Origin: Mytilus galloprovincialis
Taxonomy: Eukaryota; Mollusca; Bivalvia; Mytilida; Mytilidae
Direction: 5' to 3'
Assembly: GCF_965363235.1 (NCBI RefSeq)
Contig: NC_134851.1
Coordinates: 29,132,847-29,196,846 of the forward strand
Length of the DNA: 64,000 nt
The notes under the pieces are model-generated. The model did not search any database, was not told the DNA's origin, and worked only from the letters and a program-made list of their open reading frames with translations. The position numbers and the translations under genes are program-made. Positions within the stretch are counted from its first letter, which is position 1; each line of letters opens with the position of its first letter. Below, in pieces: positions 9,621-50,578 of the stretch.

Positions 9621-9639
9621 TACAAACAATTGAGATACT

Positions 9640-9640
<1 letters not shown>

Positions 9641-9677
<37 letters not shown>
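9641..9677 (+). repeat. Poly(T) tract of ~35 nt
   Basis: An uninterrupted T run. The matching place in unit 1 (about 7,660-7,685) is a T-rich stretch interrupted by C, so the tract differs in length and purity between units. Confidence 0.9.
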
Positions 9678-22851: not shown

Positions 22852-23130
22852 TGTATTAGAGTATACATCGTGGCTTCGTATACTTAAATTTTATAAAGTA
22901 TATTGAATTATATTCCCTGTATAGACACTGGCATTTTATTTATTGTTTTAACTTAAAGTGCCATAGCAGTCTAAATGTCGAAATATTTTTTTATGGTTTT
23001 ATCTCTTTCAAATAAATTAAGAATTCGATCGCAAAAAACCCGATTTCAAAATTCCGCGTATTAAAAAAGATATCCACACAGGTGAGTTTTGCATTAGTAA
23101 TCACACCTAAGGCGATTTTATCAATCGGCA

Positions 23131-23172
23131 ATTTCCGGAGAAAAACCGAAGTCTGACGTCACATTGTGAACA
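23131..23172 (+). promoter_or_regulatory. Promoter module of the transposase gene (ETS-like core plus CRE)
   Basis: TTCCGG at 23,133-23,138 and the palindrome TGACGTCA at 23,154-23,161, continuing cattgtgaaca, lie about 80-110 bp before the ATG at 23,242. The same combination, inverted, precedes the P2X7-domain gene. Copies 2 and 3 keep it. TGACGTCA is the known CREB/ATF site and CCGGAA the ETS core. Function is inferred. Confidence 0.55.
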
Positions 23173-23241
23173 CATGTACTTCCGATATTGCAAAATACCA
23201 TAAACAAACGAGAATATATACGAACGATTTCATCTACGACA

Positions 23242-26200
23242 ATGCCGAGAGGAGATCGCGGAGGTTCAAGTAGAGGCAGTGGGACGAGATGTGTAGCAGC
23301 TAATTGTAGGAACACAAATGCGGATGGATTTTCTTTGCATTCCTTCCCAAAAGACCCTAATCTTCGTAGAAAATGGACAGGGTTTGTGAAACTTAAGAGA
23401 GCCAACTGGGATGGACCAACGGAGTTTTCAGCCCTATGTTCCGTTCATTTTATCATTGATGACTTCCCATTCAGGCATAGGTTCGAGATTGAACATATGG
23501 GTAGAGCCCCGAAGAAGGCGAAGCTGAATGTTGGTGCTGTACCTACTGTACATAGTCCAAGTATTGCAAAGCAAGTTAGCATGGTTAAGGAGAAGCCTCT
23601 TGAAACAGAGCAACCTATACCGACGACCCCGAAACACACACTTCCACGTCTGGAGATGTTATCACCCTCAGAGACATCAACATGTCAAAGTTCTCCTCCA
23701 AAGAAGATCAGAAGAGGCTATATAAAAAGAGAAGCTGCAAGGGTAAACAACACTTTAAATTTCCATCATTTGTCCTGACTCCATGTCAAATTAGAAATTT
23801 TTGAATGCTTCAATTATTGTTAAACAGATATTAATATAATCCAATATTAATTCATAGAATGGATAAGCCTAGTCCAAATAATTATGACGTCTGGCAAGGC
23901 TATTTTCATTTTTTTTCTGGGATGCCTTCCTACGACTGCAAGGCTATTTTAAATTTTTTCTCCGACGTAGGAAGGCGTCCCAGAAAAAAATTAAAATAGC
24001 CTTGCCAGACGTCATAATTATTTGGACTAGGATAAGCCTTGTATTCATCAGTGACGGATCCAGATTTTTATTTATATGGGTGGTGATGATAGTCCGAATA
24101 ATTATGACGTCTAGCAAGGCTATTTTTTTTCTTTCTGGGACGCCTTCGTAGTGTCGTAGGAAGGCGTCCCAGAAAAAATTTAAAATAGCCTTGCCAGACT
24201 TCATAATTATTTGGACTAGGGTGGTGGAGACTTCATTTTTGGGTTCTATTAGCAGTTTGAAAAGGGGGATCAGGCTTAGTTTAAACCACAAATCCCTGTA
24301 AATTAAAAAAATAAAACAGATAAATTGGGGCCTGGCCCCCCTCTGATCATTGCTAATAAATGTACTAACTTGACCTTGATACACATACATAACAATTCAA
24401 CAATTAAGTTATTGGGAATAGCACAACTAATAAAGTACAAATGTAGAAATAACTGCACAAATTAAACAAATCAGATAAGGAAGTTCTCAGACTTCCCAAA
24501 TTATACACTTCTTGTATTTGAACTCTTTACTATATATGTTAAAATATTTCATTAACAGTTAGTTGCTGATCACTATCAGAATATTAGTACTGTCAGTGAA
24601 CCAGCTGAGGAGGACAAGCAGGAGACTTCTGTCAGTGAACCAGCTGAGGATATAGATCAACCAGACAACCATGTAATGGATTTTGAAGAGGTATGTTTAT
24701 TTGCAATATAAAAATGGCAAAAAAGCAAACGCAAAAGTTATTGAATATTCAAAAGATGTGGTATGATTACCAATGAAAAAACTCTCCACAAGAGACCAAA
24801 TGACACACATGAAATGAATAGCTATATGTCTTCTTCCAGCCTTCAACAATGAACCCATACCACATAAATATTTATGAAGGTGTTATGTATTTTTTTATAT
24901 TGAAATAAAATATCTTGTGTTGATATCCATCAAGCATTAGCAATATCTAATTCTTTTTACTTTGATACCATATAAGTATCTCAGTGACTGTAAATATTTT
25001 TTATCCTAAGATAAGACGAGGTTTTGGTTATAAGCTTTATAGTCATGACTTACACTACTTACATTGTGTACATGTATGTATGTAGGGTTACCAGATTATT
25101 GATTGAGAACATATTTTCTAAGTTCATGTAATAATTAAATTTTAATATGTTTAGTTGGATTTTCATTCTTTATCTCCTTTCTGTTCTATATGGGATACTT
25201 GGAAAAAATCAAAATGAATGGATTTTTGTATTAATGAAATGTCTAGGACCTCTAAACAAAACCATGATCTTAAAATGACTTATGCATCTGATTTATTGTA
25301 CAATTAGTTATATAAAGTATGATATTTATAAAATTTAAAAATTGTAGGTAGTAGAATATGAAGTTGATGATCCAAAACCAACTACAGCTTCATTTAGTTG
25401 CCAGGTCAACAAAAGACCAAAAAAGAGATCAAAGTATTGCCAGACTAATTCAAAGACCACAAAGTATCAGAAACCTGCAGTGAAAATGAGGACAATTGGT
25501 AATTTTCTTTTCTCTTTGAAACCTGTAATAAAAGTTCCTTACTTAAATGGTAGTTAAGTTAAAACATATTTATTTATAGCAACTTATTAATCCCTTTCGG
25601 ATTCCACTTTGCGGTTGCGAGTGCTGCCTAACATTGTATAGAGGATTAACCTACTCTTACAAAATCTACAGGGGTGTTATATTTGTGTTAGAGATATGAC
25701 TCTCTCTTAACAATGGTCAGCAATTTTGGGCCCCTCCCGATGGACTATCATTGTTTCTCAAGAACATACTTGCAAGTAGTGTCGAGGGAGATTCAAAAAT
25801 TTTAAATTGTAGAAATTTCAGCATGTACACTGCGGTTATACTATTAATTTATTTTATGTAATTTTATTAATTCATTTGTGTTACATGTATGTGCATATAA
25901 AGCAAACAAACAGTGTTGAATCTCATGAATTTATTACCAGTGATTATTATTCTTTAACAATTTTTCACTAAACATTGGCTTATAGTCTGAGGAGTAGTAC
26001 TTTGTAGCAAATTTCATTATAGAAACCTCAGTTTATTGAATGTCTTTATTCTGGTTTATTATTCAGGAACACAAACAGATGGTACAAATGAAATTCAGCC
26101 ACCAAAGCCCTTGATGAGCGATGCATTTCAGCTGGTCCGACCAGATAATTTGAAACCTTTGACAATGCCAAGAAAGTCCAAAGAACATGCTCGATCATCA

Positions 26201-29200
26201 ACCACCACCATTGATGAACCATTTTCCTCTCCAATGAAAGATGATCAAGAATCAGATCCTAGCTACCAACCTCTTTCACCTTCTTCAGATGATAATGATG
26301 AGCAGGAAATGAGGTACAATACTAAATGGGCTTTGCTCATTATTGAAGGCTGTATGACCTATAGTTGTCAAGTTCTGTGTCAGTTGGTCTCTTGTGTAGA
26401 GTTGTCTCAAAGGCAATAATACCACATCTTCTTTTTTATAAATATTGCAACAAATCCACTTTTTCAGATTCTAAAGTATATTGAAAGAAACCAGAGGGAC
26501 AATATACAGTACTCACTGATCAACAACATTGTCAAGTTTAAAAAAGAAACATGTACTGAGTAAATGAAATTTTGTCTTAATGATAATGATTTTTAGGCAG
26601 GTTTCACTGTCCTTCTGTTTGACTTTTGAGTTTCAATTTAATTTCACAGTATTAAAGGGGCACTAGCTGTCAAATTCATGTTCACCGATTCTAATCAAAT
26701 TCTTATATTTGATTTATAACAATGTAAAACATTTACCCAAACTATTAAAAGTCTAAATACATTGTAAAACAATAAGAAAGGCACAGACATGAAAATACGT
26801 AGCTCCGTTTCGTGTGTATTTTAGTGTAGACGCCATCTAATTATTTATCGAGTTGACCTCTATAGTCATCCGATGACCATATAAGCGATGTAAACATAAA
26901 TATAGATATAAATAGATTAAGCAATCACGTGCTGTAGAATTATTCTAGGTCTATTTAATTTTATATGACAGATAAAAAATAAATGTTTATCATTGTTTTC
27001 ACCTGTAATAGATTGTTTATTTGTGGATCGAACCAGTCAATCAAATCATTTACTTTGGTTTCACTTTCAATGTTTACATTCTCTTCCTTTAAATAACTTT
27101 ACACATACAATTCACGTATTATCCATCTCAAGCTAAGGGGTTAAATTAAAGTTCACATGAATACGTATTAAATGAGGTCGAAGTATTCACTTGCAAGTGA
27201 ATAACTCGTAATCAATGTTTTTTTGCTTATTTTGACAAAATTGAACATTATTGGCTACTAAAAAGGAATTATTATTTCACTATATGTATTTCATTACTGA
27301 TTTAGCGAAAAAAAAAAATATATTAGGTTTTTGATATATCTCATAGCTAGTGCCCCTTTAAGAGTATTTCATAAATCAATCTGTTGACAAAGATTTTTTT
27401 AACATTCATTATTGTAAAATTTTATATTTCCAGAAACATACATGTACCTGTAGAAGAAGACAGCAATTTCGTTGTGTTCCAATCACATTTAATGGAACTA
27501 TTTACCACTTGCACAAAATGTATGGCTGATACTGTTGGAGAAATAATGTACACTCGTGGGTCTATGGTGAAAATCAAACAAGAGTGTAAAATATGTTTAT
27601 ATGTTCGTTTCTGGTTTAGTCAGCCTTTTGTTGGAAACAAACCAGCGGGAAATTTGTCAATATCAGCAGGAATTTTGTTCTCTGGATCAGTACCAAGTAA
27701 GGCATTGAGGATGTTGAAATTTATGAATATTTGTGGAATCAGCATGTCCTCTTATATGAACCACCAGAAGTTTTACTTGTACCCTGCAATAGGACACGTA
27801 TGGCACAATTACCAGAACGATTATGCCAACGATATTCAGCAGCAACAAAGATCTGTGACACTTGGAGGAGATGGTAGAGCTGACACTCCTGGACATTCAG
27901 CCAAGTTTGGCAGTTATACCATGCTTGATCTAGATGAGGGAGTTGTTGTTGACATTCAACTTGTACAGGTTAGAATTTGAATATAAAAAAAAGATGTGGA
28001 ATGATTGCAAATGATACAACTCTCCACAAGAGATTAAACTGACACAGAAATTAACAACTATAGGTCACTGTATGGCCTTCAACAATGAGCAAAGCCCATA
28101 CCACAGATTCAGCCAAAAAAAGTCCCCAAAATGACAATTCAAACAAGAAAAAAATTGGCCTTATTTATGTTAAAAAATTGAACAAAAACATATATTAAAC
28201 ACATAAACAAACAACAACCACTGAATAACATGTCTTGTACATGTATTAACTATAAAAAAAAAAAGTAGATTAACACATTTTTATTAGTTTTATTTTTAGG
28301 TATTATTTTTTTTTATTGGAAATTTATCTATATTTGTATTGGTTTATCCTTTCAGAGTAACGAAGTCAAAAGCAGTTGCCATATGGAGAAGGAGGGGCTT
28401 CAGAGGAGTGTGGAATTTTTTAAGCACCATAACATCAACATAAAAACACTGGTGACTGATAGACATGTCCAAATTAAAAAATGGGTCAGAGAGAATATGG
28501 AAGATACCACTCATGCATTTGATGTATGGCATGTAGCTAAAGGTAAAGACAGTTGATCTTTCATGTTTTCATTGACACATTCAAATAAAAAAAATCATTA
28601 ACAGATGAATTCCTTGAATGATAATTTGACATTGACAATGATTGAAACATCAATGGTTAAACAAAATGACATGGGTCTTGCTCATTGTTGAAGTTTAACA
28701 AGTAGTGGCAGTTGCCAACTTCTTTGGTTTCTGGTTGAATGTTGTCTCACTATTATGAAAACCAAATGTGACCTTTTGATAAAATAATGAGAATTAATTA
28801 TCATGCATTAACAGTGTTATAAAATCTTCAATTTTTGAATTGTAGGAATGAAGAAAAAACTATTTGCTTTATCGAAGGAAAAGGATTGTTCAGATGTGTC
28901 TCCATGGATCAAGAGCATGGTGAATCATATGTACTGGACCGCTGCTTCATCTGCAAACCTGAATGAAGACTTGATATTAGCAAAGTGGCAATCTATTTCC
29001 AATCATATAATTAACATTCATGATGGACATAGCACACTGTTCCCCTCTTGTCAACATGATGATCTGGAGGGAAGGGAAAGACACAAAAAGTGGTTAAAAC
29101 CAGGTAAATGTACAGTCAAACCTTAATTACTCAAAGATTATTTTTCATTTAACATGCTGGAGGTTGGTCTTGTATGTAAAAATTTACATCTATTTTCATT

Positions 29201-31052
29201 TCAACATGTTCAAATTTGTAACTTGGATTGTTTTTTGTGATGGTCGTAATATTTAATTTAATAATCAATATAACCTATATAAGTAACAAATGTAATTAAA
29301 TATATTTTATAAGAAAAGGAATATATTTTACAGAAAAACTTTGGAAATTAGTTGCAGCTGTATTTTTTCCCCTTTATATTATTCTTCTTTTACATAAATT
29401 TTCTTCCAAAAATTTTTAATTACTTTAAAGAATTGAAAACTAAATCTTAGTATCATTAATTTTCAGGTTCCAAAGTTTATGAAAAGCTGCAAGACATTGT
29501 CAACAGCAGGCAGATGAAGAAGGACATTCCTATGCTGTCATCTGGACAACAGACTTCAGAACTTGAGGGATTTCATTCAGTGGTGAATCATTTTGCACCT
29601 AAAATGATTGGTTTTTCATTCCATGGAATGCTTTCTAGGTAAATGTTTAATTGATAATGGATAATTTTAGAATATAGATACATGTATATGAAGATGTGGT
29701 ATAGTGCCAATGAGACATCTCTCCATCCAAATAACAATTTATAAAAGTAAACCATTATAGGTCAAGGTACAAAAATGTATATGTATTAATATTTATTGAT
29801 ATTTTTGGTATTATTATTTATTTTTCTTTGCTTTCCATACCTCTATTTTCCATGGCACTTTAACTATATATAATAAAATTGAGAATAAAAATGGGAAATA
29901 TGTCCAAGAGACAACAACCCAACCATAGAACAGACAACAGTAGAAGGTCGCCAATAGGTATTCAATGCAGCGAGAAATTCCCACACCAAGATATATATAT
30001 ATATATATATCGACTATAGCTAACATTCATATAAATGAAATGGTAAAATTGTGAAAATATCTAATAAAACTGAATACTACACAGTGCAATTTAATTCAAA
30101 ACAATTTTTCCTTTTTTCCATCAAGGCAATGGCTTGCAGCAATGCATTTTAACGAGAACAGCAATCGGGACCATGCTTTCACACAGGATGGTAAAGCAAG
30201 ATACAGGATAGTGTATCCTAAATACAAAAAAGGAGAGCACACTGTGAGAAAAATTCCAGTCGATCCCACATTTGGTAAGCATTACTACTTGTATCAAACT
30301 GATTATTAGCAACTTGCCCCCTGAAGAAATTGCCCTCCCATTGAAAAAAATAAGTCATCCTAGCTATTGTAGTCTTACAATAGTTATTTAAGACCCCTTA
30401 TCATAATTTTAACAAGTTTTCATGTTGAAAAAGATTTTTGTAAGAGTTAAGGGACAAATGATGATGGATGCCAAGTGATGAAAAAAGCTTAATTGACCCT
30501 TAGGGTCAGGTGAAAAAATGTGTTTTCATATTAAAGTTACTATGTACAGTGTCTCTAAAATTTTAATACGTGTAATAGGTCTAAATCATTTGTATTTACT
30601 ATATATACCTTTGTAAATTCCTATAATTAGGACACTAATTATAATACACAATTTAACTACATTCTATAAAACAAGAGAATAAAATTGTTATATTTAGTTT
30701 ATATATGTACATCTGTAACAGTAGTTCATTGTTTGTTAGTGATTTTGGTCTTTCAGCAAAACCTTAATCATGTTAATTCAAAATTCAGCAAGGTCACTTC
30801 TTTCTAAATCTTTTTTTTTTAGAATATGTAGAGAGTCTGATGAAAACAGTTTTCAACATTGCAAAAGTCTCGCACATGAACAAGGAAGGTATTCAACTAC
30901 TGGTAGATGTTCCACCTCCACTTTGTAGCCAGTACGAGAGACCAGACAAAGAAGAAGCCATACAAAGCCTTCTTGCTAGATTTAATCGCTGTCAGCCTCA
31001 TGAAAACCAGTGTAGTTCTGGTGCAGATCAGGGAAGACAGTCCGGATCTTAA
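23242..31052 (+). CDS. THAP-domain Kolobok transposase, 10 exons, copy 1
   Basis: Exons: 23,242-23,742; 24,559-24,690; 25,348-25,498; 26,067-26,313; 27,434-27,968; 28,356-28,542; 28,846-29,103; 29,467-29,638; 30,126-30,274; 30,823-31,052. All have GT...AG borders and phases that fit, giving 853 aa. Residues 17-69 are a THAP zinc finger (C17, C22, C66, H69; W45, P36), with an AVPT box near 100. Residues 168-211 hold a doubled SVSEPAE motif. A zinc ribbon (C370-x2-C373, C395-x2-C398) precedes the RNase H-like core: GDGRADTPGH (D490), VTDRH (D557), VWHVAK, and LEGFHS (E704), the likely DDE triad. This layout is that of Kolobok transposases (DNA binding, then cut-and-paste at TTAA). The start is the ATG before the THAP finger. 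Splicing is predicted, not observed. Confidence 0.85.
23870..24029. mobile_element. 160-bp foldback MITE, Mutator-like, with 9-bp duplication
   Basis: The ends tagtccaaataattatgacg and its complement pair over about 37 bp, and inner blocks (gccttcctacg, cgtaggaaggc) pair as well. The direct repeat ggataagcc flanks it (23,861-23,869 and 24,030-24,038). Nine-bp duplications are typical of Mutator-like elements. It lies in transposase intron 1. Orthologous copies are at 34,265-34,424 and 44,670-44,829. Confidence 0.8.
24090..24218. mobile_element. Second foldback MITE of the same family
   Basis: It has the same termini (tagtccgaataattatgac at the left) but is shorter, 129 bp, and sits about 60 bp after the first. 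The imperfect duplication gggtggtga / gggtggtgg lies nearby. Orthologous copies are at 34,485-34,613 and 44,890-45,018. A long minus-strand frame across both MITEs is not a gene. Confidence 0.75.
24745..24875 (-). repeat. Mussel repeat fragment in transposase intron 2
   Basis: 'aaaagatgtggtatgattacc' followed by 'ctctccacaagagaccaaatg'. The same insertion is present at about 35,140 and 45,545 in the other copies, so it predates the tandem amplification. Confidence 0.75.
26318..26450 (+). repeat. Mussel repeat abutting the donor of transposase exon 4
   Basis: In plus orientation: 'aaatgggctttgctcattat', 'gttgtctcaaaggcaataat', 'ccacatcttcttttttat'. It starts within about ten bases of the exon 4 donor (GT at 26,314-26,315), so the first intron bases may derive from it. 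Confidence 0.7.
26656..27357. mobile_element. 702-bp TTAA-flanked MITE in transposase intron 4
   Basis: The inverted ends aggggcactagct / agctagtgcccct are flanked by TTAA (26,652-26,655 and 27,358-27,361). It has no ORF. The first 20 bases align with the left end of the large element (agtgccatagcagtctaaat) with small gaps, which suggests the same transposase family recognises both. Copies: 37,050-37,751 and 47,457-48,158. Confidence 0.82.
27980..28235 (-). repeat. Longest copy of the mussel repeat, in transposase intron 5
   Basis: 'aaaagatgtggaatgattgc', 'ctctccacaagagattaaac', 'ggccttcaacaatgagcaaa', 'cataaacaaacaacaaccac'. It follows the exon 5 donor after about 10 bp. Orthologous copies start at about 38,385 and 48,785. 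Confidence 0.8.
28665..28765 (+). repeat. Diverged mussel repeat fragment in intron 6
   Basis: 'catgggtcttgctcattgtt' ... 'gttgtctcactattatgaaa' keeps the family order but is diverged. Confidence 0.5.
29690..29780 (-). repeat. Mussel repeat fragment in intron 8 (site of the copy 3 break)
   Basis: 'gaagatgtggtatagtgcc', 'aatgagacatctctccatcc', 'taaaccattataggtcaagg'. In copy 3 the colinear sequence ends within this block at about 50,578. Confidence 0.7.
29872..29985 (-). repeat. Reverse copy of the 4.8-kb dispersed repeat, intron 8
   Basis: It matches the complement of 4,850-4,985: 'gacaacaacccaaccataga', 'gcagcgagaaattcccacac'. An (at)n run follows. Copy 2 equivalent at about 40,280-40,393. 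Confidence 0.75.
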
Positions 31053-33106
31053 GTACCACACAAGATGGAATAACCACACGGACCTCTTTCCCTAGGAAAT
31101 GCCAACACCACCGTACAAATTGTCTATATGCTGTGTAACGATTTCTCCTGAAATTATAAAAGATGTTCTTTTAATAAACTACAGCAGTAAATAATTCAAG
31201 CATATTCAGGATAAGATTAGATGCAAAATTTTATATTTTTATATATATTCACTTTTGAATAATAAATGGGGAATATTACCATGCACAAAGATAATGTCCT
31301 GCTTGAATATATTAATATATAAAGTTTTGTGATAATAAGTATTGTGTACAAGTTTCATACCATTTGATTGAGGCGAAATAAAGTTTGAGAATAAAAATCA
31401 ATTTTGGTACATATGGACAGACGTACAATTAGACAAGGGTGAAATAAAGTTACTATGTATACAAAAAGAGCAAGTGTTGCATTTTTCAATGAGACGACAT
31501 AGAATGCTTGTCATCCAAATCACACTAGCCAAGACTTCACATACTAAATATAAGCAATTATAAATTATATTTGATGCACAGCCTTCAACATAGTGCATTG
31601 ATTCACGATTTAAAAAACATATTATTTTTATAAAATAGATTTTAAAAATAAACCAATATAAATGTTGATGTTGATATACAGGACTGAATTTCTTACTCAT
31701 TTCCATGATCAGGATGCTCTCCATATTGCTGCCTATACTGGTAATAGGCAACTTTTAATACATGTATATCAAGGCACACTGGATGAAATCCCGGATGGTC
31801 TGTTATACAAGCTGTGTCAGGGTGTTCATTTTTCACGTCAACAATTTTTGTAACTTCACAACAGCAGACACACTCTCTTGCTGACGGCATAACTGCACAT
31901 TGTCCACAATTACACCTTGAAGAAAGCAACAGATTTATTTTAGGGAAAAATAATAATATCCAAGATACAAAGGCATAAACTATATATCTTCTGTATGATT
32001 GATTTGAACATTCAAAGAAAGATTCATTTCTTATGAATAAAGTTGAAGTTTTCTTGTTTGAATTGTTTGACATTGTCATTACGGGGCCTTTTAGGAATGA
32101 CTATGCAGTATGGGCTTTGCGCATTGTTGAAGGCCGTACGTTAACCTATACTTGTTAACTTTTTGTGTCTTTTGTTGAGAGTTGTCTCATTGGCAATCAT
32201 ACCGCATCTTATTTTTTATATTGTAGATACATTTAGGTCCCCCATAATAATGCAATGAGTTCTATTTATATCTTTGAAAGAAGAAACCGCAATAATATAT
32301 TGAATATAAGCTATTGCTTCTCTTCATGTTATAATGCTGTATGTTTGTCCTTGATCCATGTTTTGCACCAGTATTAAAGATGTGTATATACGTATACTGA
32401 GGAGAGGTTGAATGGAAGTAGTTACATTGAATTTCTGTAAACAGAAACTTGTGTTGAATGTAGAGTTATGTATCAGGAAAAGATTCAAACAGTAAAGCAT
32501 GCACATGCATGTATGAAGCTTGTCTGCTAGATTTTAATTTTCTGGTAGCCCTAGAAAGAACAGCCCCCCCCCCCCCCCCACACACACACTATAAAAGTAA
32601 CGTATATATTTTTGATGTACACCTCTCCCATTGAGAATCGGTTCTAGTAATAAAATACGTTCTCTTTAATAGTTTTGGAGTTGTTAAATGCTAGGCGGCC
32701 GTCATAGGTACAGAAATGGTAGGTATCTCGATCACTTCTTTCTCTTTCAATATTTTAGTAATTTATTTATCCCTTTTACTTTGTAAGGGTATGCGTGAAT
32801 ATAGAAATTATCATTTATAAATTACCAAGAATTGTCTGCCAATCTGTCTTCATCTTCGCCGTCTTCTGGTTCTGACTCGTCAGAATTTGAGTTGTACGGC
32901 TCAAACTGGTATGGGATAATCCCAGGGTTGATCTGAGCCCCTGCCATGGCACCAGTAGCTTCTTCTAACTCCTCGTCCGAACCTGAGCTCCCGTTTTCTC
33001 CCATTTCAAATTCCGATGAACCACAGGACAGAGACAATTCATCAGAATCACTCTCAGAACTGTCGTGGTTATCGTCTTGATGTTTCGAAGTTGATGCAGA
33101 TGCCAT
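30982..33106 (-). CDS. P2X7 ballast-domain protein, 3 exons, copy 1
   Basis: Exons on the minus strand: 33,106-32,826; 31,915-31,697; 31,147-30,982. GT/AG borders and phases fit, giving 221 aa. Residues 1-90 are acidic and Ser-rich (SESDSDELSLS, DESEPEDGEDEDRL), with IIPYQFEPY before the domain. From residue 94 comes the cysteine cluster WCNCGQC...MPS...CVCCCE (C95, C97, C100, C109, C111-C113). Then come CITDHPGF, VCLD and YQYRQQYG, and after the last intron RYTAYRQFVRWCW, VVIPSCVV and a YTGF end. This order matches the cytoplasmic zinc-binding domain of the P2X7 receptor, which also occurs alone in many invertebrate proteins. No transmembrane or channel part exists here. As the second gene of a transposon, it may be an accessory factor with an acidic arm. 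The role is unknown. Confidence 0.85.
31173..31178 (+). terminator. Poly(A) signal of the transposase gene
   Basis: AATAAA lies 121 bp after the stop codon at 31,052, inside intron 2 of the antisense gene. Copy 2 has the same at about 41,582. Confidence 0.5.
32090..32215 (+). repeat. Mussel repeat in intron 1 of the P2X7-domain gene
   Basis: 'gggctttgcgcattgttgaa', 'gagagttgtctcattggcaa', 'cataccgcatc'. Copy 2 equivalent at about 42,500-42,625. Confidence 0.75.
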
Positions 33107-33120
33107 TGTTTATATTCTTT

Positions 33121-33164
33121 GTTCATAATGTGACGTCACGCATTCCTTTCTTGGAAAACCGGAA
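33121..33164 (-). promoter_or_regulatory. Promoter module of the P2X7-domain gene
   Basis: On the minus strand TTCCGG (33,159-33,164) is followed by TGACGTCA (33,131-33,138) and cattatgaaca, just upstream of the ATG at 33,106. About 18 of 19 bases around the CRE match the module at the other end of the element. Copy 2 has it at about 43,532-43,575. Confidence 0.55.
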
Positions 33165-33332
33165 GTTATTCAGACTGGCACTCGGGACTTGTCGCAGACA
33201 GGTGCGATGGGAATGTTTAATGGGATGTAACATGCTTATTTCTTAATATTTTTTGTCGGGTTTTTTTCTATCGGTTTTAAATAATAAGTTCTTTTAAAAT
33301 TTAATTTAAAAAAAAATAAAAAAAATACGTTC

Positions 33333-33354
33333 ATATGGCACTTAAGTGCCATAT
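33333..33354. repeat. 22-bp perfect palindrome, junction of copies 1 and 2
   Basis: The sequence atatggcac-TTAA-gtgccatat joins the right end of copy 1 to the left end of copy 2 through a single TTAA. The identical palindrome is at 43,744-43,765. Confidence 0.95.
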
Positions 33355-33636
33355 CAGTCTAAATGTCGAAATATTTTTTTTATGGTTTTATCTCTTTCAA
33401 ATAAATTAAGAATTCGATCGCAAAAAACCCGATTTCAAAATTCCGCGTATTAAAAAAGATATCCACACAGGTGAGTTTTGCATTAGTAATCACACCTACA
33501 TGTAAGGCGATTTTATCAATCGGCAATTTCCGGAGAAAAACCGAAGTCTGACGTCACATTGTGAACACATGTACTTCCGATATTGCAAAAAACCATAAAC
33601 AAACGAGAATATATACGAACGATTTCATCTACGACA

Positions 33637-36600
33637 ATGCCGAGAGGAGATCGCGGAGGTTCAAGTAGAGGCAGTGGGACGAGATGTGTAGCAGCTAATT
33701 GTGGGAACACAAATGCGGATGGATTTTCTTTGCATTCCTTCCCAAAAGACCCTAATCTTCGTAGAAAATGGACAGGGTTTGTGAAACTTAAGAGAGCCAA
33801 CTGGGATGGACCAACGGAGTTTTCAGCCCTATGTTCCGTTCATTTTATCATTGATGACTTCCCATTCAGGCATAGGTTCGAGATTGAACATATGGGTAGA
33901 GCCCCGAAGAAGGCGAAGCTGAATGTTGGTGCTGTACCTACTGTACATAGTCCAAGTATTGCAAAGCAAGTTAGCATGGTTAAGGAGAAGCCTCTTGAAA
34001 CAGAGCAACCTATACCGACGACCCCGAAACACACACTTCCACGTCTGGAGATGTTATCACCCTCAGAGACATCAACATGTCAAAGTTCTCCTCCAAAGAA
34101 GATCAGAAGAGGCTATATAAAAAGAGAAGCTGCAAGGGTAAACAACACTTTAAATTTCCATCATTTGTCCTGACTCCATGTCAAATTAGAAATTTTTGAA
34201 TGCTTCAATTATTGTTAAACAGATATTAATATAATCCAATATTAATTCATAGAATGGATAAGCCTAGTCCAAATAATTATGACGTCTGGCAAGGCTATTT
34301 TCATTTTTTTTCTGGGATGCCTTCCTACGACTGCAAGGCTATTTTAAATTTTTTCTCCGACGTAGGAAGGCGTCCCAGAAAAAAATTAAAATAGCCTTGC
34401 CAGACGTCATAATTATTTGGACTAGGATAAGCCTTGTATTCATCAGTGACGGATCCAGATTTTTATTTATATGGGTGGTGATGATAGTCCGAATAATTAT
34501 GACGTCTAGCAAGGCTATTTTTTTTCTTTCTGGGACGCCTTCGTAGTGTCGTAGGAAGGCGTCCCAGAAAAAATTTAAAATAGCCTTGCCAGACTTCATA
34601 ATTATTTGGACTAGGGTGGTGGACACTTCATTTTTGGGTTCTATTAGCAGTTTGAAAAGGGGGATCAGGCTAAGTTTAAACCACAAATCCCTGTAAATTA
34701 AAAAAATAAAACAGATAAATTGGGGCCTGGCCCCCCTCTGATCATTGCTAATAAATGTACTAACTTGACCTTGATACACATACATAACAATTCAACAATT
34801 AAGTTATTGGGAATAGCACAACTAATAAAGTACAAATGTAGAAATAACTGCACAAATTAAACAAATCAGATAAGGAAGTTCTCAGACTTCCAAAATTATA
34901 CACTTCTTGTATTTGAACTCTTTACTATATATGTTAAAATATTTCATTAACAGTTAGTTGCTGATCACTATCAGAATATTAGTACTGTCAGTGAACCAGC
35001 TGAGGAGGACAAGCAGGAGACTTCTGTCAGTGAACCAGCTGAGGATATAGATCAACCAGACAACCATGTAATGGATTTTGAAGAGGTATGTTTATTTGCA
35101 ATATAAAAATGGCAAAAAAGCAAACGCAAAAGTTATTGAATATTCAAAAGATGTGGTATGATTACCAATGAAAAAACTCTCCACAAGAGACCAAATGACA
35201 CACATGAAATGAATAGCTATATGTCTTCTTCCAGCCTTCAACAATGAACCCATACCACATAAATATTTATGAAGGTGTTATGTATTTTTTTATATTGAAA
35301 TAAAATATCTTGTGTTGATATCCATCAAGCATTAGCAATATCTAATTCTTTTTACTTTGATACCATATAAGTATCTCAGTGACTGTAAATATTTTTTATC
35401 CTAAGATAAGACGAGGTTTTGGTTATAAGCTTTATAGTCATGACTTACACTACTTACATTGTGTACATGTATGTATGTAGGGTTACCAGATTATTGATTG
35501 AGAACATATTTTCTAAGTTCATGTAATAATTAAATTTTAATATGTTTAGTTGGATTTTCATTCTTTATCTCCTTTCTGTTCTATATGGGATACTTGGAAA
35601 AAATCAAAATGAATGGATTTTTGTATTAATGAAATGTCTAGGACCTCTAAACAAAACCATGATCTTAAAATGACTTATGCATCTGATTTAATGTACAATT
35701 AGTTATATAAAGTATGATATTTATAAAATTTAAAAATTGTAGGTAGTAGAATATGAAGTTGATGATCCAAAACCAACTACAGCTTCATTTAGTTGCCAGG
35801 TCAACAAAAGACCAAAAAAGAGATCAAAGTATTGCCAGACTAATTCAAAGAACACAAAGTATCAGAAACCTGCAGTGAAAATGAGGACAATTGGTTATTT
35901 TCTTTTCTCTTTGAAACCTGTAATAAAAGTTCCTTACTTAAATGGTAGTTAAGTTAAAACATATTTATTTATAGCAACTTATTAATCCCTTTCGGATTCC
36001 ACTTTGCGGTTGCGAGTGCTGCCTAACATTGTATAGAGGATTAACCTACTCTTACAAAATCTACAGGGGTGTTATATTTGTGTTAGAGATATGACTCTCT
36101 CTTAACAATGGTCAGCAATTTGGGCCCCTCCCGATGGACTATCATTGTTTCTCAAGAACATACTTGCAAGTAGTGTCGAGGGAGATTCAAAAATTTTAAA
36201 TTGTAGAAATTTCAGCATGTACACTGCGGTTATACTATTAATTTATTTTATGTAATTTTATTAATTCATTTGTGTTACATGTATGTGCATATAAAGCAAA
36301 CAAACAGTGTTGAATCTCATGAATTTATTACCAGTGATTATTATTCTTTAACAATTTTTCACTAAACATTGGCTTATAGTCTGAGGAGTAGTACTTTGTA
36401 GCAAATTTCATTATAGAAACCTCAGTTTATTGAATGTCTTTATTCTGGTTTATTATTCAGGAACACAAACAGATGGTACAAATGAAATTCAGCCACCAAA
36501 GCCCTTGATGAGCGATGCATTTCAGCTGGTCCGACCAGATAATTTGAAACCTTTGACAATGCCAAGAAAGTCCAAAGAACATGCTCGATCATCAACCACC

Positions 36601-39600
36601 ACCATTGATGAACCATTTTCCTCTCCAATGAAAGATGATCAAGAATCAGATCCTAGCTACCAACCTCTTTCACCTTCTTCAGATGATAATGATGAGCAGG
36701 AAATGAGGTACAATACTAAATGGGCTTTGCTCATTATTGAAGGCTGTATGACCTATAGTTGTCAAGTTCTGTGTCAGTTCGTCTCTTGTGTAGTGTTGTC
36801 TCAAAGGCAATAATACCACATCTTCTTTTTTATAAATATTGCAACAAATCCACTTTTTCAGATTCTAAAGTATATTGAAAGAAACCAGAGGGACAATATA
36901 CAGTACTCACTGATCAACAACATTGTCAAGTTTAAAAAAGAAACATGTACTGAGTAAATGAAATTTTGTCTTAATGATAATGATTTTTAGGCAGGTTTCA
37001 CTGTCCTTCTGTTTGACTTTTGAGTTTCAATTTAATTTCACAGTATTAAAGGGGCACTAGCTGTCAAATTCATGTTCACCGATTCTAATCAAATTCTTAT
37101 ATTTGATTTATAACAATGTAAAACATTTACCCAAACTATTAAAAGTCTAAATACATTGTAAAACAATAAGAAAGGCACAGACATGAAAATACGTAGCTCC
37201 GTTTCGTTTGTATTTTAGTGTAGACGCCATCTAATTATTTATCGAGTTGACCTCTATAGTCATCCGATGACCATATAAGCGATGTAAACATAAATATAGA
37301 TATAAATAGATTAAGCAATCACGTGCTGTAGAATTATTCTAGGTCTATTTAATTTTATATGACAGATAAAAAATAAATGTTTATCATTGTTTTCACCTGT
37401 AATAGATTGTTTATTTGTGGATCGAACCAGTCAATCAAATCATTTACTTTGGTTTCACTTTCAATGTTTACATTCTCTTCCTTTAAATAACTTTACACAT
37501 ACAATTCACGTATTATCCATCTCAAGCTAAGGGGTTAAATTAAAGTTCACATGAATACGTATTAAATGAGGTCGAAGTATTCACTTGCAAGTGAATAACT
37601 CGTAATCAATGTTTTTTTGCTTATTTTGACAAAATTGAACATTATTGGCTACTAAAAAGGAATTATTATTTCACTATATGTATTTCATTACTGATTTAGC
37701 CAAAAAAAATAATATATTAGGTTTTTGATATATCTCATAGCTAGTGCCCCTTTAAGAGTATTTCATAAATCAATCTGTTGACAAAGATTTTATTAACATT
37801 CATTATTGTAAAATTTTATATTTCCAGAAACATACATGTACCTGTAGAAGAAGACAGCAAATTCATTGTGTTCCAATCACATTTAATGGAACTATTTACT
37901 ACTTGCACAAAATGTATGGCTGATACTGTTGGAGAAATAATGTACACTCGTGGGTCTATGGTGAAAATCAAACAAGAGTGTAAAATATGTTTATATGTTC
38001 GTTTCTGGTTTAGTCAGCCTTTTGTTGGAAACAAACCAGCGGGAAATTTGTCAATATCAGCAGGAATTTTGTTCTCTGGATCAGTACCAAGTAAGGCATT
38101 GAGGATGTTGAAATTTATGAATATTTGTGGAATCAGCATGTCCTCTTATATGAACCACCAGAAGTTTTACTTGTACCCTGCAATAGGACACGTATGGCAC
38201 AATTACCAGAACGATTATGCCAACGATATTCAGCAGCAACAAATTAAAGATCTGTGACACTTGGAGGAGATGGTAGAGCTGACACTCCTGGACATTCAGC
38301 CAAGTTTGGCAGTTATACCATGCTTGATCTAGATGAGGGAGTTGTTGTTGACATTCAACTTGTACAGGATAGAATTTGAATATAAAAAAAAGATGTGGAA
38401 TGATTGCAAATGATACAACTCTCCACAAGAGATTAAACTGACACAGAAATTAACAACTATAGGTCACTGTATGGCCTTCAACAATGAGCAAAGCCCATAC
38501 CACAGATTCAGCCAAAAAAAAGTCCCCAAAATGACAATTCAAACAAGAAAACAAATTGGCCTTATTTATGTTAAAAAATTGAACAAAAACATATATTAAA
38601 CACATAAACAAACAACAACCACTGAATAACATGTCTTGTACATGTATTAACTATAAAAAAAAAAAAGTAGATTAACACATTTTTATTAGTTTTATTTTTA
38701 GGTATTATTTTTTTTTTATTGGAAATTTATCTATATTTGTATTGGTTTATCCTTTCAGAGTAACGAAGTCAAAAGCAGTTGCCATATGGAGAAGGAGGGG
38801 CTTCAGAGGAGTGTGGAATTTTTTAAGCACCATAACATCAACATAAAAACACTGGTGACTGATAGACATGTCCAAATTAAAAAATGGGTCAGAGAGAATA
38901 TGGAAGATACCACTCATGCATTTGATGTATGGCATGTAGCTAAAGGTAAAGACAGTTGATCTTTCATGTTTTCATTGACACATTCAAATAAAAAAAATCA
39001 TTAACAGATGAATTCCTTGAATGATAATTTGACATTGACAATGATTGAAACATCAATGGTTAAACAAAATGACATGGGTCTTGCTCATTGTTGAAGTTTA
39101 ACAACTAGTGGCAGTTGCCAACTTCTTTGGTTTCTGGTTGAATGTTGTCTCACTATTATGAAAACCAAATGTGACCTTTTGATAAAATAATGAGAATTAA
39201 TTATCATGCATTAACAGTGTTATAAAATCTTCAATTTTTGAATTGTAGGAATGAAGAAAAAACTATTTGCTTTATCGAAGGAAAAGGATTGTTCAGATGT
39301 GTCTCCATGGATCAAGAGCATGGTGAATCATATGTACTGGACCGCTGCTTCATCTGCAAACCTGAATGAAGACTTGATATTAGCAAAGTGGCAATCTATT
39401 TCCAATCATATAATTAGCATTCATGATGGACATAGCACACTGTTCCCCTCTTGTCAACATGATGATCTGGAGGGAAGGGAAAGACACAAAAAGTGGTTAA
39501 AACCAGGTAAATGTACAGTCAAACCTTAATTACTCAAAGATTATTTTTCATTTAACATGCTGGAGGTTGGTCTTGTATGTAAAAATTTACATCTATTTTC

Positions 39601-41461
39601 ATTTCAACATGTTCAAATTTGTAACTTGGATTGTTTTTTGTGATGGTCGTAATATTTAATTTAATAATCAATATAACCTATATAAGTAACAAATGTAATT
39701 AAATATATTTTATAAGAAAAGGAATATATTTTACAGAAAAACTTTGGAAATTAGTTGCAGCTGTATTTTTTCCCCTTTATATTATTCTTCTTTTACATAA
39801 ATTTTCTTCCAAAAATTTAAAAAAAAATTACTTTAAAGAATTGAAAACTAAATCTTAGTATCATTAATTTTCAGGTTCCAAAGTTTATGAAAAGCTGCAA
39901 GACATTGTCAACAGCAGGCAGATGAAGAAGGACATTCCTATGCTGTCATCTGGACAACAGACTTCAGAACTTGAGGGATTTCATTCAGTGGTGAATCATT
40001 TTGCACCTAAAATGATTGGTTTTTCATTCCATGGAATGCTTTCTAGGTAAATGTTTAATTGATAATGGATAATTTTAGAATATAGATACATGTATATGAA
40101 GATGTGGTATAGTGCCAATGAGACATCTCTCCATCCAAATAACAATTTATAAAAGTAAACCATTATAGGTCAAGGTACAAAAATGTATATGTATTAATAT
40201 TTATTGATATTTTTGGTATTATTATTTATTTTTCTTTGCTTTCCATACCTCTATTTTCCATGGCACTTTAACTATATATAATAAAATTGAGAATAAAAAT
40301 GGGAAATATGTCCAAGAGACAACAACCCAACCATAGAACAGACAACAGTAGAAGGTCGCCAATAGGTATTCAATGCAGCGAGAAATTCCCACACCAAGAT
40401 ATATATATATATATATATCGACTATAGCTAACATTCATATAAATGAAATGGTAAAATTGTGAAAATATCTAATAAAACTGAATACTACACAGTGCAATTT
40501 AATTCAAAACAATTTTTCCTTTTTTCCATCAAGGCAATGGCTTGCAGCAATGCATTTTAACGAGAACAGCAATCGGGACCATGCTTTCACACAGGATGGT
40601 AAAGCAAGATACAAGATAGTGTATCCTAAATACAAAAAAGGAGAGCACACTGTGAGAAAAATTCCAGTCGATCCCACATTTGGTAAGCATTACTACTTGT
40701 ATCAAACTGATTATTAGCAACTTGCCCCCTGAAGAAATTGCCCTCCCATTGAAAAAAATAAGTCATCCTAGCTATTGTAGTCTTACAATAGTTATTTAAG
40801 ACCCCTTATCATAATTTTAACAAGTTTTCATGTTGAAAAAGATTTTTGTAAGAGTTAAGGGACAAATGATGATGGATGCCAAGTGATGAAAAAAGCTTAA
40901 TTGACCCTTAGGGTCAGGTGAAAAAATGTGTTTTCATATTAAAGTTACTATGTACAGTGTCTCTAAAATTTTAATACGTGTAATAGGTCTAAATCATTTG
41001 TATTTACTATATATACCTTTGTAAATTCCTATAATTAGGACACTAATTATAATACACAATTTAACTACATTCTATAAAACAAGAGAATAAAATTGTTATA
41101 TTTAGTTTATATATGTACATCTGTAACAGTAGTTCATTGTTTGTTAGTGATTTTGGTCTTTCAGCAAAACCTTAATCATGTTAATTCAAAATTCAGCAAG
41201 GTCACTTCTTTCTAAATCTTTTTTTTTTTAGAATATGTAGAGAGTCTGATGAAAACAGTTTTCAACATTGCAAAAGTCTCGCACATGAACAAGGAAGGTA
41301 TTCAACTACTGGTAGATGTTCCACCTCCACTTTGTAGCCAGTACGAGAGACCAGACAAAGAAGAAGCCATACAAAGCCTTCTTGCTAGATTTAATCGCTG
41401 TCAGCCTCATGAAAACCAGTGTAGTTCTGGTGCAGATCAGGGAAGACAGTCCGGATCTTAA
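33637..41461 (+). pseudogene. THAP-Kolobok transposase, copy 2 (damaged)
   Basis: The ten exons match copy 1: 33,637-34,137; 34,954-35,085; 35,743-35,893; 36,461-36,707; 37,828-38,367; 38,759-38,945; 39,249-39,506; 39,875-40,046; 40,534-40,682; 41,232-41,461. In exon 5 a 5-nt insertion near 38,241 shifts the frame shortly before the first catalytic aspartate. The donor after 38,367 reads GA instead of GT. THAP residue 23 is G (R in copy 1). The predicted product would be a THAP plus zinc-ribbon protein without a catalytic core, which could still bind element ends and act as a repressor. That role is speculative. Confidence 0.75.
37050..37751. mobile_element. TTAA MITE, copy in element 2
   Basis: Same ends, flanking TTAA and length as at 26,656-27,357. 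It was inherited with the unit. Confidence 0.82.
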
Positions 41462-43517
41462 GTACCACACAAGATGGAATAACCACACGGACCTCTTTCC
41501 CTAGGAAATGCCAACACCACCGTACAAATTGTCTATATGCTGTGTAACGATTTCTCCTGAAATTATAAAAGATGTTCTTTTAATAAACTACAGCAGTAAA
41601 TAATTCAAGCATATTCAGGATAAGATTAGATGCAAAATTTTATATTTTTATATATATTCACTTTTGAATAATAAATGGGGAATATTACCATGCACAAAGA
41701 TAATGTCCTGCTTGAATATATTAATATATAAAGTTTTGTGATAATAAGTATTGTGTACAAGTTTCATACCATTTGATTGAGGCGAAATAAAGTTTGAGAA
41801 TAAAAATCAATTTTGGTACATATGGACAGACGTACAATTAGACAAGGGTGAAATAAAGTTACTATGTATACAAAAAGAGCAAGTGTTGCATTTTTCAATG
41901 AGACGACATAGAATACTTGTCATCCAAATCACACTAGCCAAGACTTCACATACTAAATATAAGCAATTATAAATTATATTTGATGCACAGCCTTCAACAC
42001 AGTGCATTGATTCACGATTTAAAAAACATATTATTTTTATAAAATAGATTTTAAAAATAAACCAATATAAATGTTGATGTTGATATACAGGACTGAATTT
42101 CTTACTCATTTCCATGATCAGGATGCTCTCCATATTGCTGCCTATACTGGTAATAGGCAACTTTTAATACATGTATATCAAGGCACACTGGATGAAATCC
42201 CGGATGGTCTGTTATACAAGCTGTGTCAGGGTGTTCATTTTTCACGTCAACAATTTTTGTAACTTCACAACAGCAGACACACTCTCTTGCTGACGGCATA
42301 ACTGCACATTGTCCACAATTACACCTTGAAGAAAGCAACAGATTTATTTTAGGGAAAAATAATAATATCCAAGATACAAAGGCATAAACTATATATCTTC
42401 TGTATGATTGATTTGAACATTCAAAGAAAGATTCATTTCTTATGAATAAAGTTGAAGTTTTCTTGTTTGAATTGTTTGACATTGTCATTACGGGGCCTTT
42501 TAGGAATGACTATGCAGTATGGGCTTTGCTCATTGTTGAAGGCCGTACGTTAACCTATACTTGTTAACTTTTTGTGTCTTTTGTTGAGAGTTGTCTCATT
42601 GGCAATCATACCGCATCTTATTTTTTATATTGTAGATACATTTAGGTCCCCCATAATAATGCAATGAGTTCTATTTATATCTTTGAAAGAAGAAACCGCA
42701 ATAATATATTGAATATAAGCTATTGCTTCTCTTCATGTTATAATGCTGTATGTTTGTCCTTGATTCATGTTTTGCACCAGTATTAAAGATGTGTATATAC
42801 GTATACTGAGGAGAGGTTGAATGGAAGTAGTTACATTGAATTTCTGTAAACAGAAACTTGTGTTGAATGTAGAGTTATGTATCAGGAAAAGATTCAAACA
42901 GTAAAGCATGCACATGCATGTATGAAGCTTGTCTGCTAGATTTTAATTTTCTGGTAGCCCTAGAAAGAACAGCCCCCCCCCCCCCCCCACACACACACAC
43001 TATAAAAGTAACGTATATATTTTTTATGTACACCTCTCCCATTGAGAATCGGTTCTAGTAATAAAATACGTTCTCTTTAATAGTTTTGGAGTTGTTAAAT
43101 GCTAGGCGGCCGTCATAGGTACAGAAATGGTAGGTATCTCGATCACTTCTTTCTCTTTCAATATTTTAGTAATTTATTTATCCCTTTTACTTTGTAAGGG
43201 TATGCGTGAATATAGAAATTATCATTTATAAATTACCAAGAATTGTCTGCCAATCTGTCTTCATCTTCGCCGTCTTCTGGTTCTGACTCGTCAGAATTTG
43301 AGTTGTACGGCTCAAACTGGTATGGGATAATCCCAGGGTTGATCTGAGCCCCTGCCATGGCACCAGTAGCTTCTTCTAACTCCTCGTCCGAACCTGAGCT
43401 CCCGTTTTCTCCCATTTCAAATTCCGATGAACCACAGGACAGAGACAATTCATCAGAATCACTCTCAGAACTGTCGTGGTTATCGTCTTGATGTTTCGAA
43501 GTTGATGCAGATGCCAT
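41391..43517 (-). CDS. P2X7 ballast-domain protein, 3 exons, copy 2
   Basis: Exons: 43,517-43,237; 42,324-42,106; 41,556-41,391. Splice sites and the cysteine cluster are the same as in copy 1 and the frame is intact. Its last exon again overlaps the last transposase exon (41,232-41,461) on the other strand. Confidence 0.83.
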
Positions 43518-43743
43518 TGTTTATATTCTTTGTTCATAATGTGACGTCACGCATTCCTTTCTTGGAAAACCGGAAGTTATTCAGACTGGCACTCGGGACT
43601 TGTCGCAGACAGGTGCGATGGGAATGTTTAATGGGATGTAACATGCTTATTTCTTAATATTTTTTGTCGGGTTTTTTTCTATCGGTTTTAAATAATAAGT
43701 TCTTTTAAAATTTAATTTAAAAAAAAATAAAAAAAATACGTTC

Positions 43744-43765
43744 ATATGGCACTTAAGTGCCATAT
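43744..43765. repeat. 22-bp perfect palindrome, junction of copies 2 and 3
   Basis: Identical to the palindrome at 33,333-33,354, again centred on one TTAA. Confidence 0.95.
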
Positions 43766-44041
43766 CAGTCTAAATGTCGAAATATTTTTTTTATGGTTTT
43801 ATCTCTTTCAAATAAATTAAGAATTCGATCGCAAAAAACCCGATTTCAAAATTCCGCGTATTAAAAAAGATATCCACACAGGTGAGTTTTGCATTAGTAA
43901 TCACACCTAAGGCGATTTTATCAATCGGCAATTTCCGGAGAAAAACCGAAGTCTGACGTCACATTGTGAACACATGTACTTCCGATATTGCAAAAAACCA
44001 TAAACAAACGAGAATATATACGAACGATTTCATCTACGACA

Positions 44042-47000
44042 ATGCCGAGAGGAGATCGCGGAGGTTCAAGTAGAGGCAGTGGGACGAGATGTGTAGCAGC
44101 TAATTGTGGGAACACAAATGCGGATGGATTTTCTTTGCATTCCTTCCCAAAAGACCCTAATCTTCGTAGAAAATGGACAGGGTTTGTGAAACTTAAGAGA
44201 GCCAACTGGGATGGACCAACGGAGTTTTCAGCCCTATGTTCCGTTCATTTTATCATTGATGACTTCCCATTCAGGCATAGGTTCGAGATTGAACATATGG
44301 GTAGAGCCCCGAAGAAGGCGAAGCTGAATGTTGGTGCTGTACCTACTGTACATAGTCCAAGTATTGCAAAGCAAGTTAGCATGGTTAAGGAGAAGCCTCT
44401 TGAAACAGAGCAACCTATACCGACGACCCCGAAACACACACTTCCACGTCTGGAGATGTTATCACCCTCAGAGACATCAACATGTCAAAGTTCTCCTCCA
44501 AAGAAGATCAGAAGAGGCTATATAAAAAGAGAAGCTGCAAGGGTAAACAACACTTTAAATTTCCATCATTTGTCCTGACTCCATGTCAAATTAGAAATTT
44601 TTGAATGCTTCAATTATTGTTAAACAGATATTAATATAATCCAATATTAATTCATAGAATGGATAAGCCTAGTCAAAATAATTATGACGTCTGGCAAGGC
44701 TATTTTCATTTTTTTTCTGGGATGCCTTCCTACGACTGCAAGGCTATTTTAAATTTTTTCTCCGACGTAGGAAGGCGTCCCAGAAAAAAATTAAAATAGC
44801 CTTGCCAGACGTCATAATTATTTGGACTAGGATAAGCCTTGTATTCATCAGTGACGGATCCAGATTTTTATTTATATGGGTGGTGATGATAGTCCGAATA
44901 ATTATGACGTCTAGCAAGGCTATTTTTTTTCTTTCTGGGACGCCTTCGTAGTGTCGTAGGAAGGCGTCCCAGAAAAAATTTAAAATAGCCTTGCCAGACT
45001 TCATAATTATTTGGACTAGGGTGGTGGACACTTCATTTTTGGGTTCTATTAGCAGTTTGAAAAGGGGGATCAGGCTAAGTTTAAACCACAAATCCCTGTA
45101 AATTAAAAAAATAAAACAGATAAATTGGGGCCTGGCCCCCCTCTGATCATTGCTAATAAATGTACTAACTTGACCTTGATACACATACATAACAATTCAA
45201 CAATTAAGTTATTGGGAATAGCACAACTAATAAAGTACAAATGTAGAAATAACTGCACAAATTAAACAAATCAGATAAGGAAGTTCTCAGACTTCCAAAA
45301 TTATACACTTCTTGTATTTGAACTCTTTACTATATATGTTAAAATATTTCATTAACAGTTAGTTGCTGATCACTATCAGAATATTAGTACTGTCAGTGAA
45401 CCAGCTGAGGAGGACAAGCAGGAGACTTCTGTCAGTGAACCAGCTGAGGATATAGATCAACCAGACAACCATGTAATGGATTTTGAAGAGGTATGTTTAT
45501 TTGCAATATAAAAATGGCAAAAAAGCAAACGCAAAAGTTATTGAATATTCAAAAGATGTGGTATGATTACCAATGAAAAAACTCTCCACAAGAGACCAAA
45601 TGACACACATGAAATGAATAGCTATATGTCTTCTTCCAGCCTTCAACAATGAACCCATACCACATAAATATTTATGAAGGTGTTATGTATTTTTTTATAT
45701 TGAAATAAAATATCTTGTATTGATATCCATCAAGCATTAGCAATATCTAATTCTTTTTACTTTGATACCATATAAGTATCTCAGTGACTGTAAATATTTT
45801 TTATCCTAAGATAAGACGAGGTTTTGGTTATAAGCTTTATAGTCATGACTTACACTACTTACATTGTGTACATGTATGTATGTAGGGTTACCAGATTATT
45901 GATTGAGAACATATTTTCTAAGTTCATGTAATAATTAAATTTTAATATGTTTAGTTGGATTTTCATTCTTTATCTCCTTTCTGTTCTATATGGGATACTT
46001 GGAAAAAAATCAAAATGAATGGATTTTTGTATTAATGAAATGTCTAGGACCTCTAAACAAAACCATGATCTTAAAATGACTTATGCATCTGATTTATTGT
46101 ACAATTAGTTATATAAAGTATGATATTTATAAAATTTAAAAATTGTAGGTAGTAGAATATGAAGTTGATGATCCAAAACCAACTACAGCTTCATTTAGTT
46201 GCCAGGTCAACAAAAGACCAAAAAAGAGATCAAAGTATTGCCAGACTAATTCAAAGACCACAAAGTATCAGAAACCTGCAGTGAAAATGAGGACAATTGG
46301 TTATTTTCTTTTCTCTTTGAAACCTGTAATAAAAGTTCCTTACTTAAATGGTAGTTAAGTTAAAACATATTTATTTATAGCAACTTATTAATCCCTTTCG
46401 GATTCCACTTTGCGGTTGCGAGTGCTGCCTAACATTGTATAGAGGATTAACCTACTCTTACAAAATCTACAGGGGTGTTATATTTGTGTTAGAGATATGA
46501 CTCTCTCTTAACAATGGTCAGCAATTTTGGGCCCCTCCCGATGGACTATCATTGTTTCTCAAGAACATACTTGCAAGTAGTGTCGAGGGAGATTCAAAAA
46601 TTTTAAATTGTAGAAATTTCAGCATGTGCACTGCGGTTATACTATTAATTTATTTTATGTAATTTTATTAATTCATTTGTGTTACATGTATGTGCATATA
46701 AAGCAAACAAACAGTGTTGAATCTCATGAATTTATTACCAGTGATTATTATTCTTTAACAATTTTTCACTAAACATTGGCTTATAGTCTGAGGAGTAGTA
46801 CTTTGTAGCAAATTTCATTATAGAAACCTCAGTTTATTGAATGTCTTTATTCTGGTTTATTATTCAGGAACACAAACAGATGGTACAAATGAAATTCAGC
46901 CACCAAAGCCCTTGATGAGCGATGCATTTCAGCTGGTCCGACCAGATAATTTGAAACCTTTGACAATGCCAAGAAAGTCCAAAGAACATGCTCGATCATC

Positions 47001-50440: not shown

Positions 50441-50578
50441 GTAAATGTTTAATTGATAATGGATAATTTTAGAATATAGATACATGTATATGAAGATGTG
50501 GTATAGTGCCAATGAGACATCTCTCCATCCAAATAACAATTTATAAAAGTAAACCATTATAGGTCAAGGTATAAAAAT

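Follow-up and report, generated by a model that had tools for sequence, protein, structure and literature searches.

A two-gene element with TTAA at its border

A complete element of 10,386 bp, which we assign to the Kol0 lineage of the Kolobok transposons, occupies positions 22957-33342 (plus strand) of the window, a 64,000-nt stretch of the Mytilus galloprovincialis genome (GCF_965363235.1, NC_134851.1:29,132,847-29,196,846, forward strand) in whose coordinates all features at the locus are given. The element terminates in 9-bp inverted ends, AGTGCCATA on the left and TATGGCACT on the right, and a TTAA target-site duplication lies directly to its left (22953-22956). Kolobok elements are recognized by 5'-RR and YY-3' termini and by a TTAA target site (PMC9587614), and the termini found here are AG...CT with TTAA immediately outside. 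Dispersed relatives with TTAA outside fix the ends of the element as AGTGCCATA...TATGGCACT, the right end being GGCACT followed by TTAA in all three examined (C8a, C8b and C2a) and the left end being TTAA followed by AGTG in four of six (C11a, C7, C2b and C4); the left ends of C11b and C11c have the same first base, preceded by TGAC, and one flank is common to both.

The transposase gene lies on the plus strand (23242-31052) and consists of ten exons (23242-23742, 24559-24690, 25348-25498, 26067-26313, 27434-27968, 28356-28542, 28846-29103, 29467-29638, 30126-30274 and 30823-31052) with GT/AG borders and a stop-free joined frame of 853 aa. The encoded protein has a THAP zinc finger at residues 17-104 (PF05485, 5.1e-13, above the curated Pfam cut-off), a CxxC..CxxC motif and a DDE core. 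Residues D490, D557, D578-x-x-H581, H638, H643, C653, H655 and E738 are invariant in 18 aligned transposases. Moreover, the Kolobok signature of C/DxxH between the second D and the E, followed by zinc-finger residues, is present, and the choice of the catalytic D and E among these residues is a prediction. The second gene, KolX, is arranged tail to tail with the transposase gene inside the element and is read from the minus strand (30982-33106) in three exons (33106-32826, 31915-31697 and 31147-30982) encoding 221 aa. A 19-bp subterminal repeat containing TGACGTCA is present at 23154-23172 on the plus strand, 70-88 bp before the transposase ATG, and its inverted partner (18/19) is present at 33120-33138 on the minus strand, 14-32 bp before the KolX ATG. 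This palindrome-containing repeat ahead of both start codons is a candidate for a common promoter element or a transposase-binding site. Scanning the window for Rfam families and for tRNA genes gave no match.

The last exons of the two genes overlap in antisense over 71 bp of coding sequence (30982-31052). For comparison, nine KolX relatives with a frame that continues beyond the domain (a run-on) were picked by eye from 60 matches, and in eight of these nine the run-on, when back-translated antisense, fits the transposase tail in the same single frame, with scores of 158-217 against best scores of 78-108 in 20 shuffles each. The run-on of the ninth, P0059, does not fit the transposase tail (71, against 85 in shuffles). 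This shows that the predicted antisense-overlap layout recurs among relatives, in a sample that was chosen for run-on frames and gives no frequency. In most other linked loci of the mussel genome the gap between the two genes is larger.

KolX and the P2X7 ballast domain

KolX of this element matches Pfam P2RX7_C at 7.1e-17 (62.4 bits, curated cut-off 23.5), which is its single Pfam match up to an E-value of 1. Four distinct PDB sequences are matched at E <= 1; all are P2X7, the best at 8.5e-8. All seven ballast cysteines are present, and in an alignment of 36 rows C95, C97, C100, C111 and C112 are invariant and C130 and C196 are kept in at least 90%. By its sequence, KolX is a P2RX7_C-type domain protein with seven predicted zinc-binding cysteines. 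An AlphaFold2 model of a KolX homologue (P0004, from a 35-row alignment) had a pLDDT of 76.3 and a pTM of 0.66, with the ballast part mostly above 90, and when this model was compared with the PDB, P2X7 chains took ranks 1-14 of 21 matches, and 13 of these chains had E <= 0.001. The model of this homologue thus supports a P2X7-like fold for KolX. The likeness to the cytoplasmic ballast of P2X7 (PDB 9e3m and 6u9v) extends over sequence, the seven cysteines and the modelled fold of a close homologue; unlike the receptor, mussel KolX has no channel, and it has a long acidic N-terminus (26 D/E against 2 K/R in 92 residues) with a PYQFEP-like motif shared by 33 of 36 aligned KolX-type proteins. Such an N-terminus and motif would be more in keeping with an adaptor that binds proteins than with a protein that binds DNA, and because of these adaptor-like features we favour a role for KolX as adaptor or partner of the transposase, which is the weakest step of our interpretation. 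In a tree of the domain with 40 rows, from which the truncated P0002 and P0005 were omitted, 7 of 37 inner branches were starred and P2X7 stood on a long branch. Searches of viral contigs gave ten pattern matches for relatives of KolX and five for relatives of the transposase, and none of either was confirmed.

A head-to-tail array with TA junctions

The element opens an array of three head-to-tail copies, ~99.5% alike, with only TA between neighbouring ends (33343-33344 and 43754-43755), where a normal insertion leaves TTAA. Copy 2 (33345-43753, plus strand) has both ends complete and an intact KolX gene (41391-43517, minus strand; exons 43517-43237, 42324-42106 and 41556-41391), and its transposase gene is thrown out of frame by an insertion of 5 bp in exon 5. 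Copy 3 (43756-50586, plus strand) is truncated on its right side, at about 50586; it retains transposase exons 1-8 and lacks exons 9-10, the KolX gene and the right end, and the right-side target-site duplication of the array is gone together with the rest of this copy. Differences amount to 32 in 10,393 aligned bases between copies 1 and 2, 29 in 6,846 between copies 1 and 3 and 20 in 6,848 between copies 2 and 3, a few flank columns being included in these counts. The KolX coding DNA of copies 1 and 2 has no difference in 666 bases, where about 2 would be expected from the rate over the whole element, too small a shortfall to build on. The sequence-only reading had described a single unit of ~10.4 kb with TTAA-adjacent ends, holding a ten-exon gene with THAP, zinc ribbon and DDE parts and, starting from the opposite end, a gene of three exons with a P2X7-type domain. 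Both genes and the complete unit were recovered as described, with the right boundary at 33342 and not 33341, and two further tandem copies had been overlooked; the reading had also let the unit stand or fall with the match between its ends and those of other copies, and they match on the right in three of three and on the left in four of six dispersed copies, which are few and degraded.

We consider it very probable that the locus holds an autonomous Kolobok (Kol0) cut-and-paste transposon with KolX as an accessory gene, which was then amplified in place into a head-to-tail array. Counted against this explanation is that no other near-complete or near-identical copy was found in the 1,384,861,812 bases (1.38 Gb, 331 contigs) of the genome searched, where its relatives at other sites are present as fragments, most with 77-94% identity, and one left end of 122 bp, on C7, reaches 98%. 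The array might instead have arisen by ordinary repeated insertion at the TTAA flanking the first copy, since the element targets TTAA and a copy that inserted next to an earlier one would be its head-to-tail neighbour. This would leave GGCACT-TTAA-AGTGCC between copies, whereas the sequence at both junctions is GGCACT-TA-AGTGCC, which is shorter by two bases; the full junction, TATGGCACT-TA-AGTGCCATA, is a 20-bp palindrome whose only two sites in the 1.38 Gb are those in the array. Repeated insertion also lacks a near-identical donor elsewhere in the genome, and we regard it as unlikely. That the array is an assembly artefact, in which alleles or repeat copies have been set in a row, is quite unlikely: the repeated unit is bounded exactly by the transposon ends, and both substitutions and 5-6-bp insertions distinguish the copies. 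Mussel genomes are very heterozygous, which speaks for an artefact of this kind, but duplicated alleles would include flanking sequence, and haplotype duplication was ruled out because the repeated unit contains none. Under the preferred explanation of amplification in place, one insertion at the locus would have been amplified to the array from an end-fused junction; its TA would consist of one base of the target-site duplication from either end, like the junction of a fused-end intermediate that was made once and then amplified.

Copy 3 ends (50560-50610) at a dispersed repeat that also sits in several introns of the element, which suggests repeat-mediated loss of the right part of the array. 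The first transposase intron has fold-back (inverted-repeat) insertions at 23868-24031 and 24090-24218 in all three copies. A tandem repeat of ~2 kb, about 91% alike and with internal 120-bp units, occupies 6760-11601 of the window and has no relation to the element.

Linkage of ballast loci and transposases in the mussel genome

A profile search of the genome with P2RX7_C, in which 150 of 199 candidates were scored, gave 102 exon matches that were merged into 93 loci, and a search with the transposase core (99 of 196 candidates scored) gave 107 matches in 55 loci. Among the matches listed, at least 17 of the 93 ballast loci have a Kol0-type transposase no more than 10 kb away, where 0.07 pairs are expected by uniform chance. 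All 17 pairs are tail to tail with gaps of 14-5,099 bp, and copies 1 and 2 of the array are two of them. Seen from the transposase side, again among the matches listed, 17 of 55 loci have a ballast locus and 38 do not, copy 3 being one of the 38. As a control, none of 114 matches to the PF20700 transposase (114 of 1,115 candidates scored; many are array members, hence not independent) came within 10 kb of a ballast locus; the shortest distance was 10,143 bp.

We also checked the 30 best ballast loci with 1.5-kb flanks, and found transposase exons in the flanks of 9 with the first queries and of 13 after divergent transposase tails from L036 and L051 had been added. The L036 tail matches A2 transposases at 5e-7, and the L051 tail matches the L036 tail at 4e-21 (40% over 88 aa); since the L051 tail is recognized only through that of L036, the partners of L050 and L051 rest on this chain of queries. 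Nine additional loci were detected by their flanks, all nine tail to tail, which brings the total to at least 26 of 93 with 26 of 26 in this orientation; this is a lower bound, taken among the matches listed and with queries that miss distant transposase lineages. Seven ballast loci (L036, L038-L042 and L046, on C1, C5, C9, C11 and C12) are 93-99% alike over about 3.2 kb and have a transposase on the 3' side. L037 on C4 is an intronless KolX with an open transposase frame of 611 aa located 1.3 kb away, tail to tail. Within two spliced KolX families, our queries detected no transposase in the 6.0 and 5.4 kb downstream of one member each (L065 and L066), and L050 and L051, other members of the first of these families, do have one.

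In other species, consecutive gene numbers in Branchiostoma floridae (LOC118415275, transposase, P0149, and LOC118415276, KolX, P0034) and KolX/transposase pairs on contigs of equal size in Ylistrum balloti (P0015/P0077) and Mya arenaria (P0014/P0101) are suggestive only of the same linkage. Two KolX exon loci of the mussel genome, L059 and L060 (C9:17038811 and 17043095), are 99.9% alike and inverted, about 4 kb apart.

The sequence-only reading had proposed that the ballast domain may spread as a transposon accessory gene and had suggested a test of whether most stand-alone ballast genes have a Kolobok transposase within 10 kb. The proposal is supported by the position of the gene inside the element, by the linkage of at least 17 of 93 loci against 0.07 pairs expected and by right-end fragments of the same family elsewhere, which the reading had said should not consistently lack the second gene and which carry KolX exon 1 in three of three, although such copies are few and degraded. 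In the test, linkage was found at 26 or more of 93 loci among the matches listed, which falls short of showing 'most'. Rump et al. (2020; PMC7016195) described the stand-alone domain without transposons, with no occurrence of 'transpos' in the available text of the article, where it is also stated that the GDP-contacting residues are not all kept outside mammals. That the ballast gene is a host gene beside a single transposon, or captured once by it, is highly improbable, since it lies within the element ends, is carried by three fragments of the same family elsewhere, has one orientation in 17 of 17 linked pairs among the matches listed and forms dispersed repeat families such as that of the seven loci above, even though 67 of the 93 ballast loci have no nearby transposase among the matches listed and the available text of PMC7016195 regards the stand-alone proteins as products of host genes whose synteny is conserved.

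Proposed mechanism and relation to known Kolobok elements

From these features we infer an active transposon with the following mechanism. The THAP-DDE transposase would bind the ends through its THAP finger, excise the element and insert it at TTAA. KolX, a putative zinc-binding protein of ballast fold with a long acidic N-terminus, would act as a transposition accessory factor, either as a partner of the transposase or as an adaptor to a host factor; we take it to have this accessory role because the second proteins of other DNA transposons with two genes offer an analogy.

Kojima and Bao (2022; PMC9587614) named KolX and showed its likeness to the P2X7 tail, and their conclusion in the available text is that P2X7 arose when a P2X4-like gene was fused to a KolX. 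The interpretation of the ballast domain as a transposon protein, which present results support, was hence already published in 2022, and the same holds for the route to the P2X fusion that the earlier reading of this DNA had offered, which is not novel. We found no other paper on the link in a literature search combining KolX, P2X7 or the ballast domain with Kolobok or transposon; PMC9319628 mentions P2X7 and Kolobok once each in its available text. The mussel element resembles the Kol0 lineage (Kolobok-1_XT type), as described there in PMC9587614, in its TTAA target, RR...YY ends, DDE core with D-x-x-H and zinc-finger residues, and second gene for a ballast-fold KolX, and its assignment to Kol0 rests on this second gene as identified by the P2RX7_C match. 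It differs in its ten-exon transposase and three-exon KolX within 10.4 kb, in the head-to-tail array with TA junctions and in the antisense overlap of the genes, the word 'overlap' being absent from the available main text of that paper. New here are the three-copy array joined by TA, the genome-wide linkage counts with a control and the 71-bp antisense overlap.

The results independently confirm in a mussel genome that stand-alone P2X7 ballast genes include many transposon genes. Many such genes are labelled 'P2X purinoceptor 7-like' in databases, and to interpret them as purinergic receptors or immune-gene expansions, one should first have checked their 3' side for a transposase. Moreover, an intact two-gene element is material for testing the role of KolX, hence the ancestral function of the P2X7 tail.

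KolobokP likewise combines a Kolobok transposase with a second gene on the opposite strand and forms tandem multimers (PMC9587614, available text). However, long terminal direct repeats (about 450 or 660 bp) are a feature of KolobokP that the mussel element does not have, its second protein is KolX and not the His-Me finger nuclease of KolobokP, and its copies abut end to end where those of KolobokP share a repeat. No direct match longer than 20 bp was found between the first and last 800 bp of the element, and KolobokP identity was ruled out by the absence of terminal direct repeats and by a second protein that matches P2RX7_C only (Pfam to E 1). More tentatively, and with considerable doubt, a Kolobok element without long terminal repeats might multiply in place, an excised circle with fused ends (TA), or unequal exchange starting from such a junction, building the array, with KolX participating in or regulating the process. 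If this were true, multimers would belong to Kolobok transposition in general and would not be a side effect of the repeats and nuclease of KolobokP.

Another Kolobok-like transposase occurs in long head-to-tail arrays elsewhere in the genome (C12:64934696-64990401, C61, C219, C11:77878388-77911131, C2:54270267-54294758 and C6:73165216-73175613), with unit steps of 4,060 and 3,591 bp (difference 469) or 4,653 and 4,193 bp (difference 460). These differences are as expected for KolobokP multimers in which the ~460-bp terminal repeat is missing in places, and this transposase is a candidate KolobokP.
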